Positions 1 through 35,868 of a DNA stretch of 35,868 bases are shown piece by piece; the first letter of the stretch is position 1; every line of letters begins with the position of its first letter. The DNA comes from Bugula neritina (Eukaryota; Bryozoa; Gymnolaemata; Cheilostomatida; Bugulidae), in assembly GCA_964035545.1 (NCBI GenBank), contig CAXIUT010000239.1, positions 1 through 35,868 on the forward strand, in the 5' to 3' direction. The notes under the pieces are model-generated. The model ran no database searches. It was not told where the DNA came from and saw nothing but the letters and a program-made list of their open reading frames with translations. The position numbers were made by a program, and so were the translations under genes.

Positions 1-100
1 CCCAACCCCAACCCCAACCCCAACCCCAACCCCAACCCCAACCCCAACCCCAACCCCAACCCCAACCCCAACCCCAACCCCAACCCCAACCCCAACCCCA
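1..100. repeat. Left telomere, (C4A2)n
   Basis: About 16.5 perfect CCCCAA units start at base 1 and end abruptly at unique sequence near base 100. C4A2 on the 5' strand (G4T2 on the 3'-ending strand) is the telomere type known from oligohymenophorean ciliates. Together with the right-hand array it shows that the window is a whole chromosome. Confidence 0.98.
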
Positions 101-5155: not shown

Positions 5156-7615
5156 TCACAATCTGAAATTAAAAACATTTTAATCCTATTTCTATTTCTA
5201 TCTGATCCTCAAGGTCAACCTCTCTATCTCTCGCTTATAGCTCACTATCTACTCCTTCAAAACCTCTATCTACGGAATCAACAAACATTACTCAGCCGAT
5301 TCAAGCATACGCATTATCTATCCTCCACTCTCTTCTTAACTATTCTCTTCTTCATCAACTTAACTACTCTCTTCATCAACTTAACTACTCTGTCTTTAAA
5401 CCTATCTACTATTTGGAATTAACTATTATTCCTCTGCTTGAATCCCACTTTCTGCCACCAACTTTTATTCAGTTTGAGCCTCACTCTAAATATATTATGT
5501 CTCATAAGTCTGAATTCCACTTGATACTTCTTCCTTCTCTTCTGTTTGCATCCCACCTTAAACCACAACATATTATAGCTGAACCTGACTTCTTCTTTAG
5601 AGTTATATCTGACTTCTTCTTTAGAGTTATATCTGACTTCTTCTTTAGAGTTATATCTAACTTCCTCTTTAGAGTTATTTCTAACTTCCTCTTTAGAGTT
5701 ATTTCTAACTTCCTCTTTAGAGTTATATCTGACTTCTTCTTTAGAGTTATTTCTAACTTCCTCTTTAGAGTTATTTCTAACTTCCTCTTTAGAGTTATAT
5801 CTGACTTCTTCTTTAGAGTTATATCTGACTTCTTCTTTAGAGTTATTTCTAACTTCCTCTTTAGAGTTATTTCTAACTTCCTCTTTAGAGTTATATCTGA
5901 CTTCTTCTTTAGAGTTATATCTGACTTCTTCTTTAGAGTTATATCTAACTTCCTCTTTAGAGTTATTTCTAACTTCCTCTTTAGAGTTATATCTGACTTC
6001 TTCTTTAGAGTTATATCTGACTTCCTCTTTAGAGTTATATCTGACTTCTTCTTTAGAGTTATATCTGACTTCTTCTTTAGAGTTATATCTGACTTCTTCT
6101 TTAGAGTTATATCTAACTTTCTCTTTAGAGTTATATCTGACTTCTTCTTTATAATTCCTTTTAATATATATTTTTTTGACTTATTATTTAAATATTTTAC
6201 TTTTCATATTCAGTCTGACATTCATTCTAGATATGTGCTATAAAGATTTAGGTTTGACATTAATTCTATTTTATTTAGCTATTCTTTTCAGTTTGATATT
6301 CTAATTCTCTTTTGGTTATATTTTTCTAAGTCTGTATTCCACTCTATATACCTTATTTATAATATTCAGTTTGACTTTATCTATCTATTTTTTATCTTCT
6401 TGATATCTACATTATCTTCAATACTGATATAATCTTTTCACTACTCTTCTATTGCTATTCATTCATTTCTTTTATTGTTTTTCTTACATCAGATGCTATA
6501 CTTTTCAACTTTAAACACTGACCACTCAATAAAGATTCCAGCTATTTGATATTATGTTTGTTACGAGTTGATTCCCGAGTGAGTAAAGAGTACTATTTTG
6601 TTAGTTTAGAAAGTACTTCTTCGATAGTTAATTTTTATCTTAACAAATCTTAAAACTATTTCTGTTCAAAAGATAGTTGATTGGATAATGTTGTATTTAC
6701 TTCTTTTACTTTCTCGAGTTTCTCCAATAAACATACTTTCTATTTATTTAAAGAAGTATGTTAGACAGATAAATCAACATACTTCTCTTTTTAAGTTTAT
6801 AAAGCAGTTCTAGTAGCTATAACCTATTGACTTATACCTTAATGCTCTTATACTTTCTAACGAATAGACTCAGTAATCTTTTTAAAAGTCACAGGTTGAT
6901 CATTCTTAATACATCCTAGCTTTTATATTTTAGCAAATAAAGCTTTAATTATTCTATCTTTCTTGTCAATGCTCTCTTGAAGCTCTCTTACCTTTCCATC
7001 CAACATTTTTTATTCTGACATTATTCCCCCTGACAACTTCTTTTCAAGACCACTTTTAATTAACCCATCAACTGTTACTTTTGGACTTTTTTCCCTTGCT
7101 ATCAAAGTATTCTGAAAAACTCCAGAACCATTACTGCTAGGACATAAAAACAAACTCTCAAATTACTAAACTATTGATTTTTGACTGAGAATATATCTTT
7201 ATATATTGTCTTTACACTACCTTATTTTTGATTTATTGTTTTACTATTAAGCTTTAATAAGATTTTTTTTAGCTATTTATTCCCTTTGAAGCTATTATTG
7301 ATATTTATCATACAATCGACGAGGCCTACCATCCAAATATTTAATCACAATAGAAAAGATTTTATTAATTTTTTAGTTTCTACCAGACTAATCACCTCTA
7401 TCTCTATCTTTTTTGCTATTTTTATCAGGCACTATCGCATATTAAATAAATTTATTAGTATCAGTAGTTCTCAAAGGATGCTATTTTCTATTATAACTAA
7501 CCAAGTTATTATTCTGCTGAGTTCTTTTGAATTTGCTAGAATTTTTAACCTATCTAGAACTTCTGTAATTAATACATTTATACTATCGATTGGCCTGGGT
7601 GGTGTTTCTCATCAT
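5156..7615 (-). CDS. Long coiled-coil protein with octapeptide repeats
   Basis: 819 aa in one exon, unrecognised. The N-terminus (~1-130) is Asn/Lys/Ser-rich and ends in a short hydrophobic-basic stretch, IFSIVIKYLDGRPRRLYDKY. Residues ~130-410 are Glu/Lys/Leu-rich helix with heptad character (for example LTIEEVLSKLTKEYSLLTRE). From ~410 a degenerate QTE motif recurs (SQTEY, IQTEK, CQTEI, CQTEY). Residues ~488-674 are about 23 octapeptides of two kinds, RRSQIELE and RGSEKELE, from a 24-bp tandem repeat. The C-terminus returns to acidic QTE-type sequence and ends at TGA 5156-5158. The composition suggests a cytoskeletal or basal-body filament protein, but no homolog is recognised. The start is the first ATG of an ATG-ATG pair, and the divergent RAP gene begins only 34 bp away. 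Confidence 0.8.
5588..6152. repeat. 24-bp coding tandem repeat
   Basis: About 23 copies of a 24-bp unit (plus strand ttagagttatatctgacttc plus 4 bases). There are two main variants, ...atatctgacttcttc and ...atttctaacttcctc, arranged in blocks of two, three or more, which indicates higher-order duplication. On the coding minus strand the variants give RRSQIELE and RGSEKELE. Confidence 0.95.
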
Positions 7616-11539: not shown

Positions 11540-11802
11540 ATGTAAAATATCAGGCAAGTACCTTCAAAATTATATTGGTTCTTGTCCGCTATCATCGAAC
11601 TCATCCTCATCTTCTTCGTCTCCATCTTTAAACTCAACAAACCCTCTGACTCACTCACCTCAGATGACATCAGAAACCTCAGACGAGGAAATCAACCCGG
11701 CGGACATAACGGAAATGATTGGAGATATCAAGGATCAAGAGGTAAGTATCCTTTTATTTAGGTTCGACCAGAGTGCCCATGGGAGGATGAGGAGGAGGCT
11801 GA
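11540..11802 (+). CDS. selK: Selenoprotein K-like, Sec encoded by TGA
   Basis: 80 aa: exon 1 11540-11741, a 20-nt intron 11742-11761 (GTAAGT...TTTAG), exon 2 11762-11802. Layout matches the SelK/SelG family, small ER-membrane proteins: a short polar N-terminus, a Trp-containing single TM segment (about 11-29, YWFLSAIIELILIFFVSIF), then a Gly/Arg/Asn/Asp-rich tail (RRGNQPGGHNG, NDWRYQGSRG) and a C-terminal MGG-U-GGG. The U is TGA at 11788-11790, and a second TGA 9 nt on (11800-11802) is the stop. Family members end in GGUGR or similar. A canonical SECIS lies 37 nt beyond the stop (separate entry). SelK acts in ER-associated degradation and as a DHHC6 partner in animals; that role is by analogy. 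If the intron is retained, the frame gives an acidic tail instead of Sec. Confidence 0.9.
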
Positions 11803-11838
11803 TTCGATGGTTGAGGAAGAGAAGGCGCTACAATTTCC

Positions 11839-11882
11839 ATGATTGAGTTTAAAAAAACTCGAAAGAGCTTTAAACTCATGAT
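11839..11882 (+). promoter_or_regulatory. SECIS element (form II-like)
   Basis: The eukaryotic Sec-insertion hairpin is read directly. 5' quartet ATGA at 11839-11842, then one base, then a perfect 10-bp helix (11844-11853 with 11869-11878). The apical loop starts with AAAA (11854-11857), followed by a mini-stem CTC/GAG closing a GAAA loop (11858-11867). The 3' side is T-GA-T at 11879-11882, giving the tandem U-U, G-A and A-G non-Watson-Crick pairs of the consensus AUGAN...KGAW. Unpaired A's plus a mini-stem above the long helix is the form II layout. It sits 37 nt after the SelK stop, in the 3' UTR. Confidence 0.93.
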
Positions 11883-11973
11883 AATTGAAGCTATTCTTTG
11901 GTGATTCTTTATGATATAAGTTAGCAATCACTCTAGTATGAACAATTTTATTTGTTTTATTTCATATTTAGCT

Positions 11974-12048
11974 GGGGTTGGGGTTGGGGTTGGGGTTGGG
12001 GTTGGGGTTGGGGTTGGGGTTGGGGTTGGGGTTGGGGTTGGGGTTGGG
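11974..12048 (+). repeat. Internal telomeric array (G4T2)12.5
   Basis: 75 bp of perfect GGGGTT units, G-rich on the plus strand as at the right chromosome end. The array lies between the 3' ends of two convergent genes: 92 bp after the SECIS and 18 bp before the stop codon of the cyclase-like gene. It may form G-quadruplexes. The open frames across it (Gly-Val or Pro-Thr repeats) are not genes. Confidence 0.97.
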
Positions 12049-17824: not shown

Positions 17825-18028
17825 AATTAGCAAATCAATAAATAATATTATCAATGAAAAGGTTGTGAGTAATTACTGAAATAAATAAATAAGTCAATCA
17901 ATAAATAATATTATCAATAAATAATATTATCAATGAAAAGGTTGTGAGTAATTACTGGAATAAATGAATAAATAAATGAATGAATGAATGAATGAATGAA
18001 TGAATGAATGAATGAATGAATGAATGAA

Positions 18029-18079
<51 letters not shown>

Positions 18080-18253
18080 ATCAATAAATAGTATTATCAA
18101 TGAAAAGGTTGTGAGTAATGGGGTTGGGGTTGGGGTTGGGGTTGGGGTTGGGGTTGGGGTTGGGGTTGGGGTTGGGGTTGGGGTTGGGAGTATTATCAAT
18201 GAAAAGGTTGTGAGTAATTACTTCAATAAATAAATGAATAAATAAAATAATAA

Positions 18254-18312
<59 letters not shown>

Positions 18313-18360
18313 ATCAATAAATAGTATTATCAATGAAAAGGTTGTGAGTAATTACTTCAA

Positions 18361-18395
<35 letters not shown>

Positions 18396-18443
18396 ATCAA
18401 TAAATAGTATTATCAATGAAAAGGTTGTGAGTAATTACTTCAA

Positions 18444-18474
<31 letters not shown>

Positions 18475-18522
18475 ATCAATAAATAGTATTATCAATGAAA
18501 AGGTTGTGAGTAATTACTTCAA

Positions 18523-18561
<39 letters not shown>

Positions 18562-18636
18562 ATCAATAAATAGTATTATCAATGAAAAGGTTGTGAGTAA
18601 TTACTTCAATAAATAAATGAATAAATAAAATAATAA

Positions 18637-18687
<51 letters not shown>

Positions 18688-18780
18688 GTCAATCAATAAA
18701 TAGTATTATCAATGAAAAGGTTGTGAGTAATTACTGAAATAAATGAATAAATGAATGAATAAATAAATAAATAAATAAAT
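17825..18780. repeat. Composite satellite: 30-bp core plus (AATA)n
   Basis: Nine copies of a ~30-bp core (attatcaatgaaaaggttgt then gagtaattact) start near 17847, 17927, 18093, 18191, 18324, 18408, 18487, 18573 and 18692. They alternate with (AATA)n tracts of varied length and one (AATG)n block near 17960-18027. Copy 3 is interrupted by the internal telomeric array. The region fills the gap between the 3' ends of two convergent coiled-coil genes and holds no credible gene; open frames across it are tetranucleotide read-through. Confidence 0.95.
18120..18188 (+). repeat. Second internal telomeric array (G4T2)11.5
   Basis: 69 bp of perfect GGGGTT units within the satellite, in the same orientation as the array at 11974 and as the right telomere. 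It follows gtgagtaat of core copy 3 and is followed directly by gtattatcaatg of copy 4, replacing the usual attact-(AATA)n spacer. Confidence 0.97.
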
Positions 18781-18800
18781 ATTTAGGAATAATAGAGATA

Positions 18801-25511: not shown

Positions 25512-26243
25512 TCATTTTTTGTTGTACTGTTTTAGCCATTCAGCTTTATCTTACAAATATCCATTCAGCTGGTAGTTAGGATCAGGCAAGTTTTTTTTAT
25601 GTCCTCCCCGTCTACTCACCTCTTAGACTTACTTTTATGGCTGTTTGATATTGATATTGGAACAGACCTTCAAATAATCCTGAAAAGTATACTCTTTATG
25701 AGTATTGTTCATGATATTCAGCTGAATCTCTTCGTTTCTTGGAAATATCATGTAGTTTGTTTCTACTCTATCTTTTTTGAGTTTTCTAAATGACTTTTCA
25801 CTATATAGTCTCTCAAGATCGTCTTTCACTCTTTTGTAGGTGTAGTTGAGTAACTAGTCGTCTACTTATAGTCCTCCTGGATGTTTAAGAATTAAAGACC
25901 TGAGTTCTTTTTCATTCTTTACATTGTATTTGTTATTCCTGCATATTTTGATATTTTCTTTGTTATTGCTTTTTTAGACAGGCTCAAAATAATATTTTTC
26001 TTTGAAAATAGGATCGTTTTTAACTACGTCTTCTATAAATGACTTCACAAATTGCTAGTCTACACTTCTGTTGGCGACAAACCTATTTTATTAAGCCATC
26101 TTTCGAAATGCTTAATTGTTTATCACCTTTTCTATCTTAATTGGGTCTCCATGACTGTTCTTAAACTCGTCTTCAAACAAAAACTTAAGAATTGTTAACT
26201 GTCCCTGGTCCTCTCTCGACAATGTCACCAAACTACTATTCAT
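25512..26243 (-). CDS. Transcription factor IIE, beta subunit
   Basis: 243 aa, single exon. Matches TFIIE-beta (GTF2E2): a first winged-helix (~15-100: AFRKMAEENRFVANRS) and then a segment ending in ICRNNKYNVKNEKELRSLIL, the family's KYNVRDKKALLRLL. Next come HPGGLEVDDELLNYTYKRVK (second winged helix) and YMIFPRNEEIQLNIMNN, where human has ILFFND. The C-terminal SRRGGHKKNLPDPNYQLNGYL corresponds to the basic KKRRFKTHNEHL tail. TFIIE recruits TFIIH to the RNA polymerase II pre-initiation complex in the nucleus. Human TFIIE-beta is ~290 aa; this one lacks the Ser/Lys-rich N-terminal extension. Divergent from the NAD synthetase gene (137 bp between starts). Confidence 0.88.
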
Positions 26244-26380
26244 AGATATTTAATATTATAATACTTACGACTCTTTTCCCGCTATATCTTTTTAAACAAG
26301 TTTAATTTGGCATCTAAATATATAATTTACCAGATTTTGATTAATTACAACCTCTCTTCGCTCAATATATAATATATCTT

Positions 26381-28624
26381 ATGAAACTCAGACAATTACA
26401 CGTCAAAATTGGTCTCTGCAGTCTCAACAACGACCCTCTCGATTTCAAAAACAACTACAGAAAAATATGTTAAAGCATCGAAGAGTGCCGTCGTCTCAAT
26501 TGTTCCATCAGAGTAGGAGGATAACTATAAATTTCAGGATATTCATGTGAAGATCACTTCCTCTAATACGACACAGTTTTCCACTCTTGGGATATAATCA
26601 GAGATATTATCGCCTCAGGAGTAACTAATGGCATCGTTGTAGACATCGGTTGTCCAGTTCTACACAAAGCAGCTCTCTACAATGGCAGAATAATCATCTA
26701 TAACTCCAAGTTGATTGGTATTAGATGTAAGATGAGTCTTTTCGATGAAGGAAACACCTTTGAAACCAGATACTTTTCTGCCTGGAAACATTCCAGACAA
26801 ATTGATCAGTTTATGTTGCCTCAAATACTCCAAGATCTTACAGGACAACGGACAATCCCCATTGGCAGTTTTATCCTGAACTTTAACGACACCTTTGTTG
26901 CCTATTAAATAGGATAATAAGCCTGGATTTCTGACAATCCAATGATAGATGCTTCTCTTGACGGAGCATAGATCTTTCTCAGTCCTTCAGGATCAGAAGC
27001 TTAAAGAGGAAAGTTAAAAAGGAAGTTACAAATGCTTGAATAATTTACTTAGAGACATGGAGGAGCATATGCCCATGTTAATATCAAAGGAGGAATTGGT
27101 CAAAGAAACTTCTATGATGGTTGTTGCTTTTATGCTTAGAACGGAAAAGTAAAAGAATTGTCATAACCCTTTCATCTGGGAGATGTCCAAGTAACTCCTG
27201 TAGTAATAAACCTCAATGCAGTTAGAACATTCAGGATAAATAACAAATCGTTCCAGAAGGCCTCACATGGAGTATCTCTAATTCCTCGAGTTAAAATATA
27301 AACTAGTATCGCTACAAATGCAGAATAGTATGTTTATGATAGTTAAATTCATAAAAAAGAACTGAAAAGAAGAAGGAATCTGTATTAATTTTAACATGTA
27401 TCTTATGAACCTTCTGCTTATCTATGGGATTTCTTGAGAAAAAGCAGAGCTAGAGGATTTTTCTTGCCTTTATCTGGTGGATTAGACAGTTGCGCAGTGG
27501 CTCTTATAGTCTATAATATGTGTTTTCTTATCTACAATCAAATCAAACACTCGGCACAGTCATTGTAAATCCTATAACAAGTGAGGCAAGTAGTTAAAGA
27601 TAAAGAATATGTCCCTTGTAGTACTTAATAACTGTGTGGAAAAATACTATGGACAGCTTATTTGAGCACTGAAAATACGAGTTAATTAACTAAAAATAGG
27701 GCAGATAAAATAGCAAAACAGTTTGGTATCAATCATCGTAAAATAAATTTTGATAAGATATATCAATCCTACAAACAAATCGCATTAAAACAATTTAATC
27801 TTCAACCTAAATTCAAACTAGAAGGGGGATCTTAGAGGATGGACCTTTCTCTTCAAAATATTCAGGCAAGGACAAGAATGGTTCTATCATACTTCCTAGC
27901 TGCTTTAGAAGTAGAAAAAGCCAATCAACCAGGTTTTTTATTAGTCTTAAGCGCAGCTAATTTAGATTAAACTCTTAGAGGTTACTTCACTAAATACGAC
28001 TGTAGTTCAGCTGACATCAACCTTATTGGCTCCTTCTCAAAGTATCGACTCAGATAGTTTGTAAACTACTTTCAAGGAGTCCATAACTTTGATATTTTAA
28101 AAGAGGTGCTGGAAGCTACTCCTTCAGCTTAACTTAGACCTTTAAAAAAAGGATAGACAGTTCAAAATGATGAAGAAGATATGGGTCTATCTTATGCCTA
28201 GTTATGTGTGTTTGGAAGATTTAGAAAGATATAAAGATTAGGTCCTGTTTCAATGTTCGATAGAATGATTTATAAAGCAAGTTATTCAGATGTCTAAGAA
28301 TTGGCAACAAAAATAAAATTATTTTTTACTACATACGGCTAGAACAGACATAAAGCTAATACTCTACCTCCAGTATTTTACTATGATCCTGAGTGCAGTG
28401 AACACAATAGGTATGATATTCGACCTTGGGTTTATGCAACCGATTGGTCCTATCAATTCTAAATAATCGACGAGAGAGTAAGAGAGATCAAAAGCAAAAA
28501 ATAGCAACTAAGTAAAATATAAAAACAGCTAAATGGAGGACAATAAGACAAAAATATCAATGCCATTTTGCTACCACCCGTTAAAGAACAAAATAAAGAA
28601 GTAACCAGAATTCTTAATCTTTGA
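26381..28624 (+). CDS. NAD+ synthetase, glutamine-dependent type with degenerate amidase site
   Basis: 747 aa, single exon, collinear with eukaryotic NADSYN1/QNS1 (~700 aa). N-terminal nitrilase-type amidase (~1-290): catalytic Glu48 in GGELEISGYSCEDHF (codon TAA), catalytic-site Lys in RCKMSLF. The nucleophile Cys of EICEELW is Gly178 here (YEIGEEAW; GGA at 26912-26914). C-terminal synthetase (~350-720): ATP PP-loop [53 protein letters not shown]. The synthetase site looks intact, so the enzyme should convert deamido-NAD to NAD with ammonia but probably cannot draw it from glutamine. NAD biosynthesis, cytosolic. Conserved Glu positions throughout are TAA/TAG, which fixes the code. The C-terminal ~40 residues after VYATDWS are a charged extension. 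Confidence 0.97.
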
Positions 28625-31540: not shown

Positions 31541-32719
31541 TCAATAGGCACAAGGTTTGTTGCTTGGCCATGCATCGGCATCAATCATTGCAACTTTTTC
31601 ATCTTTAAAAACAAATCTATCAATCGCATCAGCAACAGTAGAACCTACTAGTTGAGGTATTTTCTGAGTAGAAACATTATAAAAATTACCAAAACAAGCA
31701 TAAGAATGTTGACAACAACTAATAGTCCAGATACTATGATTGTTTTGAACGATATTTTATACAATGCTCAGATAATTAGTCCTATATCCTTAGATATAAT
31801 TCATTTGTTTTTAGTTACATCTAGATAGAGTCATTCCTGATACTCCAGCAGACATACAATCCATCCCCATTGATGTTTAAAGACCTACAGCATCATACTA
31901 CGAATTCAAAAACATCACCTTACTCTAGATAAAGTATAAAGCATTTTGAATACTAAAACATTTCCATTATTAGCCCACATATTTCTGATTACATCCTTCG
32001 ATGGGAGATTTCTAGTCTATATTTGACAACTTTATGAGATTTTTTGTCAAAACATCATATATATGAATAATAGTATTAGGATAACTCACATTGGCAAACA
32101 CACTTGAATCAGCTATAGTGTAGACCTTGCTAGGCTAGTCAACTAATGATCTAAAATAGTTACTCCACATCCAAGTAGCTACTCCTCCAGCTGACGCACC
32201 AGTCAAAATCACTTTACTTGCCTTGTTTATCTTATATCTATTCAATAACCATCTAAAATGCGATCTTGTATTATCAGCTCCTCTAAAGTATAATTGAGTA
32301 TCTTTATACGATACTGGATCTTTACTGCTACCTTGGTGCAATGAGCTGTCACAGTATGTTATAATTATCTTTGTAAAGTTGGCAAATTTACTCAAAGAAG
32401 GATCAGTTGATAGATATCCTCCAGGAGATAAGACTTATTTTGATAAGTATTTACTACTTCCCAAGTCTGTTTTAGATCTTTTATAACAATCTTCAAGAGT
32501 CTGTTCAACAGTCAAGCCAGAACAAAAGCCACCTCCTACAAAAAATATCAAAAAGTGTTAAGTATCTCCTCCCTAGTGTAGATATAAAGCAGGAGAAGAT
32601 CCATCCAAACATCTAGCTTAAGGATCTGTATTATGAATTACCAATTTATAAGGTTCTTATGCACAGTTGATCAAGGATAAACAACTCAGAAGAAACAAAA
32701 ATCCTATTTTAAGATGCAT
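31541..32719 (-). CDS. Pectin acetylesterase / NOTUM-family hydrolase, secreted
   Basis: 392 aa, single exon. Signal peptide MHLKIGFLFLLSCLSLINCA. Family landmarks in order: CLDGSSPALYLHEGG, FLIFFVGGGFCSG (oxyanion region), KIIITYCDSSLHQG (family: VYVPYCSGD), LYFRG, nucleophile elbow LTGASAGGVATWMW (Ser176), IADSSVFANVS, and a C-terminal NHSIWTISCCQHS holding the probable catalytic His. Cysteines are many and spaced as in secreted members. The family removes O-linked acyl groups (acetyl from pectin, palmitoleate from Wnt). In a ciliate without Wnt, digestion of acetylated plant or algal polysaccharide is the likely role. Alone among neighbours it is a plain secreted hydrolase. Confidence 0.92.
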
Positions 32720-32776
32720 TCTACTATTAAATATCAATTATAAGGTAAAAAGGAAAATTATTATTTACTTTGGGAA

Positions 32777-35443: not shown

Positions 35444-35781
35444 AATAGCTAAACTTATTTGATATAAATGATTTTGGTCTTTGAATTTATAATAGGATAG
35501 TCTAACTAATACCGATATTTTATAAAGAACTTTAAAAAATCTACTAGTTTTATCAGTTTATTATTATATCTCTTTTAATCAAGATAATCTATGTTGCTTC
35601 TTGCAAGGTCAATAAACTAGATATATATTTATCCTTACGTTACATATTTATTTTATAATAGACTCATCAGTTCAATCTAGTACAAATATATGAATCAAAT
35701 AAATATGATTTTATTTAAGAAAACCATCTTTAACAATTACTATCCAATAGAATAGAACAAAATATTTTTAAATAAAATAAT
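35444..35781. other. Right subtelomeric spacer
   Basis: About 338 bp of AT-rich DNA upstream of the last gene and next to the telomere. It presumably holds that gene's promoter. No open frame or repeat of note. Confidence 0.6.
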
Positions 35782-35868
35782 GGGGTTGGGGTTGGGGTTG
35801 GGGTTGGGGTTGGGGTTGGGGTTGGGGTTGGGGTTGGGGTTGGGGTTGGGGTTGGGGTTGGGGTTGGG
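35782..35868. repeat. Right telomere, (G4T2)n
   Basis: 87 bp, 14.5 perfect GGGGTT units running to the end of the window. Orientation is that of a true chromosome end. Confidence 0.98.

Follow-up and report, generated by a model that had tools for sequence, protein, structure and literature searches.

A putative selenoprotein K gene of a ciliate with a peritrich-type genetic code, in which UGA may serve as selenocysteine codon and as the only stop

Results

A two-exon gene on a macronuclear chromosome

The window, that is the whole stretch of 35,868 bases analysed here, is one contig (C228) of an assembly of 215.8 Mb in 295 contigs. Because it opens with a C4A2 telomere and ends with a T2G4 telomere, which is typical of such chromosomes, it is a ciliate macronuclear chromosome, present from telomere to telomere (Table 1). 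On its forward strand lies a two-exon gene (11540-11802) predicted to encode an 80-residue selenoprotein K (SelK) with the C-terminus PMGG-UGA-GGG-UGA, and a SECIS-type hairpin stands in the 3' region. From the ATG, translation gives M-E(UAA)-NIRQVPSKLYWFLSAIIELILIFFVSIFKLNKPSDSLTSDDIRNLRRGNQPGGHNGNDWRYQGSRG, then the intron GTAAGTATCCTTTTATTTAG, then STRVPMGG-UGA-GGG-UGA. The sense codons between the putative selenocysteine (Sec) UGA and the putative stop UGA are three Gly codons, and a third in-frame UGA lies three codons beyond that stop.

Table 1. Coordinates of the features in the window, with the basis or content of each.
Feature	Position	Strand	Remarks
C4A2 telomere	1..100	+	repeat reading of the sequence
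SelK exon 1 (predicted)	11540..11741	+	ATG start at 11540; codon 2 UAA = Glu; putative membrane-spanning stretch and start of Gly/Arg tail
GT-AG intron, 20 nt	11742..11761	+	splits last Gly codon; splice restores the frame to ...GSRG-STRVPMGG
SelK exon 2 (predicted)	11762..11802	+	end of Gly codon, then STRVPMGG-U-GGG-stop
UGA as putative selenocysteine, residue 77	11788..11790	+	at Sec position; relatives show frame end, W or TGA-compatible codon
UGA as putative stop	11800..11802	+	another in-frame UGA three codons on
SECIS with lower helix CAAUU/AAUUG (putative)	11831..11887	+	fold
SECIS-type hairpin, AUGA to UGAU	11839..11882	+	fold and motif scans
NAD synthetase frame used for code reading	26006..28621	+	34 TAA and 12 TAG in frame
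T2G4 telomere	35781..35868	+	repeat reading of the sequence

Judged by eye, the translation appears to contain a membrane stretch, LYWFLSAIIELILIFFVSIF, followed by a Gly/Arg-rich tail, RRGNQPGGHNGNDWRYQGSRG. With Cys substituted at the UGA, the Pfam profile SelK_SelG (PF10961) matched over positions 24-86 of 86, to the end of the profile, and the score passed the cut-off narrowly (24.0 bits against 23.3, a margin of 0.7 bit). The SelK identity claimed in an earlier note on this DNA is thus borne out by a match above cut-off, and so is the reading MGG-TGA-GGG-TGA, in which the two TGA are separated by three Gly codons. No match to the PDB was obtained at E values up to 10, and Rfam run on the gene reported no SECIS family at E up to 1.

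Animal SelK carries its Sec near the C-terminus in a Gly context. The predicted protein resembles it in this, an in-frame UGA standing a few codons before the C-terminus among Gly codons, and the relatives that reach this point are compatible with it. Like the PF10961 family, which it matches by profile, it appears on visual inspection to have a short N-terminus, a single membrane stretch and a tail rich in Gly and Arg; unlike known SelK, it would end in U-GGG, use UAR for Glu within the gene and have UGA also as its stop.

The window contains further elements. Two internal T2G4 telomere-type arrays (11973-12048 and 18119-18188) have the orientation of the right telomere and, as judged from the open frames, apparently lie between convergent genes; comparable arrays occur, among the matches listed, in C10, C11, C14 and C15 and near the gene for SepSecS in C244. 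They are possibly alternative chromosome ends or assembly effects. A 24-bp tandem repeat of 23.6 copies (5585-6151) is overlapped by open frames, a long AATA-rich repeat zone extends over 17959-18781, and a pectinacetylesterase/NOTUM-family gene (PF03283, 207.6 bits) occupies 31544-32776 on the reverse strand.

Ciliate and presumed animal contigs

The contigs C2, C4, C7, C8 and C9 measure 11-34 Mb each. Since genes on the large contigs were matched in short, exon-like pieces, these look like an animal partner, the presumed host of the ciliate. Among the matches listed, the small contigs C10, C11, C14 and C15 open with the same telomere as the window. Small contigs with many in-frame UAR were defined as ciliate contigs and were all assumed to belong to one species; the tRNAs of two small contigs (C65 and C196) are not ciliate-looking, so small contigs need not all be ciliate. 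Proteasome-family genes were found on eight small contigs (C15, C58, C64, C76, C99, C103, C158 and C271), where about 14 such genes would be expected. The ciliate part thus appears roughly half complete, with perhaps about half of that genome absent from the assembly.

UAA and UAG read as glutamate

The code was read from the NAD synthetase frame of the window, from SepSecS on the ciliate contig C244 and from one alignment block of NOTUM. In the comparison with 6ofb, the solved human NAD synthetase, 23 residues align with TAA once one gap row is removed, and 10 of them are Glu; for TAG, 2 of 10 are Glu. SepSecS was recognised with 238.5 bits, its first matched stretch containing 9 TAA and 3 TAG in frame, and with 270 bits against 4zdl, the solved human SepSecS, to which TAG faces Glu in all four cases and TAA in 3 of 11. 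In the NOTUM block, the corresponding fractions are 1/1 for TAG and 0/3 for TAA. Pooled over the three, TAA faces Glu 13 times out of 37 (Gln 2, Lys 2) and TAG 7 times out of 15 (Gln 1). Moreover, TAG and TAA stand at the two Glu of the conserved GVGEREGR of SepSecS. Given these counts and the GVGEREGR positions, the code deduced from the alignments is that of peritrichs (NCBI table 30), with UAA and UAG as Glu and UGA as sole stop, and the earlier claim that UAR means Glu is upheld by the alignments.

Codes in which UAR means Gln, or UAA means Lys and UAG means Glu, belong to the same class, as described in the accessible text of PMC10553269. In their favour, two strict patterns recognised no UUA/Glu suppressor tRNA. 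The first pattern gave four matches, all on large contigs; the second gave 34, three of them on small contigs, at which two loci were read. One, on C196, is a tRNA-Lys; the other, on C65 (one of two matches with identical matched sequence), was called tRNA-??? by ARAGORN and is mitochondrial-looking by eye. The Gln and Lys codes are nevertheless opposed by the pooled counts, in which Glu stands against so few Gln and Lys, and by both Glu of GVGEREGR; they were rejected on this evidence, and we regard them as extremely unlikely.

A SECIS-type hairpin in the 3' region

The hairpin begins with AUGA and one spacer base, followed by a 10-bp helix, an unpaired A-run on the apical side and the mini-stem CUC-GAAA-GAG, and ends with UGAU. 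The segment 11826-11898 folds with -17.6 kcal/mol (z -4.08), and none of 200 shuffles was equally stable. A strict motif scan, in which at least 9 unbroken pairs were demanded, matched once in the whole window on both strands, at this hairpin; the controls gave 4 matches in 30 shuffled windows and 1 among 2000 shuffled versions of the 3' region (175 nt). A looser scan, with up to 2 mismatches and any base accepted at the first position of the 3' quartet, returned 14 sites in the window including the hairpin, so the looser motif alone is unspecific. Rfam reported no SECIS family for the hairpin at E up to 1, and Rfam on the whole window was likewise without result. By the motif scans, the SECIS core (AUGA, apical AA, KGA) is present in the 3' hairpin, and the fold and the strict scan agree with the SECIS of the form AUGAN...AA...KGAW, with a 10-bp helix and a GAAA mini-stem, that the earlier note had described. 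By coordinates, the AUGA lies 48 nt from the putative Sec UGA and 36 nt from the putative stop UGA.

Applied to the six Tetrahymena SECIS strings given in the accessible part of PMC2612030, the looser scan matched four, three of them without mismatch, and missed two. The four share the layout AUGA, one spacer, helix, AA and UGA, with a helix of 11-12 bp as compared with 10 bp here.

Selenocysteine machinery on the ciliate contigs

C244 carries two copies of the gene for SepSecS, the Sec-making enzyme, separated by about 8.4 kb. In an ungapped comparison, the two 3750-base loci (L044 and L045) differ at 1037 positions, apparently mostly or wholly in the flanks. The SepSecS gene has a 21-nt intron that, read by eye, is of the same kind as the 20-nt intron of the SelK gene.

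No tRNA-Sec was found on ciliate contigs with Rfam (a run that scored 53 of 6191 candidates) and two patterns. The one tRNA-Sec(UCA) found lies at C2:7600912-7600997, on a contig of 33.6 Mb that presumably belongs to the animal partner. Eight of the nine Rfam tRNA-Sec matches listed were read and comprise this tRNA-Sec and seven tRNA-Ser; the ninth is on C7. Among 12 pattern matches, the sole one on a small contig (C14) proved to be an intron-bearing tRNA, Leu(UAA) by eye. This region (C14:18300-18900, L062) holds two tRNAs, at positions 254-355 and 487-600, both with anticodon-loop introns and both Leu(UAA) by eye; they were reported by Rfam and missed by ARAGORN, and the first directly follows an internal telomere array.

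SelD gave 7 matches, every one on C1 or C2, PSTK gave 2, both of them on C2, and GPx, with Sec or Cys, gave 4 on the large contigs C1 and C3; none of the three was found on the ciliate contigs. The EFsec model gave 15 matches, the best on the large contig C5 and probably the partner's, and no EFsec was recognised among the small-contig matches read (C42, C120 and C139, not C52 and C210): by eye, C42 is eIF5B, C120 is GTPBP-like and C139 is eRF3-like. The match on C52 has a 453-residue frame and is probably eEF1A. One of five Sec-specific components was thus found on ciliate contigs, fewer than expected at the estimated completeness, and the models and patterns may perhaps be weak for ciliates. 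The earlier note had proposed a search for tRNA-Sec and EFsec as a check, and neither was found on ciliate contigs, whereas SepSecS, which that note did not list, was found; with the ciliate part seemingly about half complete, the missing tRNA-Sec speaks against the selenoprotein reading but does not refute it.

As for the presumed host, the tRNA-Sec on C2, SelD-like exons on both C1 and C2 and, on C1, a GPx exon containing a single in-frame TGA suggest that it also makes selenoproteins.

Relatives of the SelK gene

A search of 5.8 billion proteins found ten relatives, and 42, the first ten included, were obtained with the alignment as query (E up to 0.01). These relatives, known here as protein sequences, were sorted by where their frame ends. 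In 15 the frame ends exactly after MGG or MGGG, in 11 it stops before exon 2, two have W at the Sec position (P0038, MGGWGGGW; P0043, MGGWGGGAW), 13 carry exon 2 in another frame, which on back-translation is compatible with M-G-G-TGA-G-G, and one (P0042) is ambiguous. None of the 17 in-frame rows has Cys at the Sec position. The codon options in the shifted rows are TGA/TGC (three rows), TGA/CGA (seven), four codons (one) and eight codons (two), with TGA as the sole codon common to all 13; since the sorting script retained only TGA-permitting readings, these rows are a test of compatibility and not a proof.

The predicted splice is supported by relatives without the intron in their frame, which read GSRG-STRMYMGG (P0014 and P0034) or GSRG-STYVPMGG (P0010), and the C-termini of these three agree with the predicted spliced end of SelK. 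By our own reading, 20 relatives reach residue 2, of which 11 have Glu there, 6 have Asp, and the other three have Asn, Lys and Gln, one each; this predominance of Glu fits UAA as Glu inside the SelK gene. Scans of prokaryote and viral contigs gave 218 and 224 pattern matches, not one of which was confirmed as a relative. The database relatives are the strongest evidence for the proposed SelK reading.

The relatives also bear on two other ways of reading the UGA. Through readthrough or an ambiguous code, it might stand for one of the standard amino acids Trp and Cys, as UGA is in some ciliates according to the accessible text of PMC10553269, and the two relatives with W at the Sec position would agree with this. 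However, both W rows hold a second W near the expected stop, as if the gene caller had taken UGA for Trp, while their protein sequences would also allow TGG; moreover, a Trp or Cys reading leaves the SECIS and SepSecS without a role. It was rejected for these reasons, and we see hardly any chance that it is right. Alternatively, the gene might encode a short ordinary protein terminated by the first UGA, with the second UGA as a tandem stop and the hairpin as a relic or a product of chance. This would suit the absence of most Sec machinery from the ciliate contigs searched as well as the enrichment of downstream tandem in-frame UGAs in PL0344, a UGA-only ciliate (PMC10553269, as far as its text was accessible). 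Nevertheless, the first UGA sits at the SelK Sec position, the strict hairpin scan has its single match in the window at this site and seldom matches shuffled sequence, relatives repeatedly show a UGA-compatible codon together with a Gly-rich tail, and SepSecS is present. Termination at the first UGA was rejected on these grounds and appears to us quite improbable.

Discussion

Taking the sequence evidence together, we are confident that the gene is selenoprotein K of a ciliate with a peritrich-type code, in which UAA and UAG mean Glu and UGA is the sole stop. The SelK gene is real, and its product is very probably a selenoprotein. The use of UGA both for Sec and as sole terminator, 9 nt apart in one mRNA, as claimed in the earlier note, finds support in the SelK match, the SECIS scans, the reading of UAR as Glu and the relatives.

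We propose that the SECIS would recruit a SECIS-binding protein, EFsec and Sec-tRNA and thereby cause the UGA at 11788 to be read as Sec, and that the UGA at 11800, closer to the AUGA and backed by a further UGA, would terminate. The latter might be spared because it is too near the SECIS. In mammals, the minimum UGA-SECIS distance for recoding is about 51 nt. As the two UGA codons lie 48 and 36 nt from the AUGA, about this known minimum, position relative to the SECIS may decide between Sec and stop. That the distance to a single SECIS sorts the two meanings of the only stop codon over 9 nt, perhaps in the SelK relatives too, is a tentative idea that we consider somewhat unlikely. The predicted 80-residue protein would cross the membrane once and carry a reactive Sec in the C-terminal tail. 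Animal SelK resides in the ER, where its role is in redox reactions or protein complexes, and by analogy the same might hold for the ciliate protein. With regard to the spacing, the accessible text of PMC7409322 cites a range of 50-110 b, which it words in terms of how far away the true stop codon lies.

SelK, one of the selenoproteins with the widest distribution, has been reported in Drosophila, Dictyostelium and Ostreococcus (PMC2375036, in its accessible part). Tetrahymena uses UGA both as its sole stop and for Sec (PMC2612030, PMC7409322), a likeness to the system proposed here; unlike here, UAR is Gln in T. thermophila, and SelK lies outside the six selenoproteins given in the accessible part of the published account (2 GPx, 3 TrxR and SPS2; PMC2612030). 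Similarly, Oligohymenophorea sp. PL0344 has a tRNA-Sec(UCA) and UGA as sole stop, so that all 64 codons can be sense, but UAA is Lys and UAG is Glu there; the word selenoprotein does not occur in the main text of that report (PMC10553269). The code deduced here is like the peritrich nuclear code, table 30, in which Campanella and Carchesium have UAA and UAG as Glu (PMC10553269). Judged by titles, no selenoprotein under the peritrich code was found described in the literature searched, which included few subscription papers, in line with the earlier note, which knew of none. Thus, dual use of UGA is supported here and, in itself, has already been published for Tetrahymena and PL0344 (PMC2612030, PMC7409322, PMC10553269, in the parts accessible); what is new is its occurrence in SelK and under the peritrich code, together with the wide conservation.

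This reading would extend selenoproteins to a code with UAR as Glu. With a Sec UGA, 9 nt, a stop UGA and one SECIS, the gene would also offer a compact natural case for the choice between Sec and termination under a single stop codon. Moreover, SelK genes of this kind appear truncated or misframed in sequence collections, as in the 15 of 42 relatives whose frames end exactly before the Sec codon.
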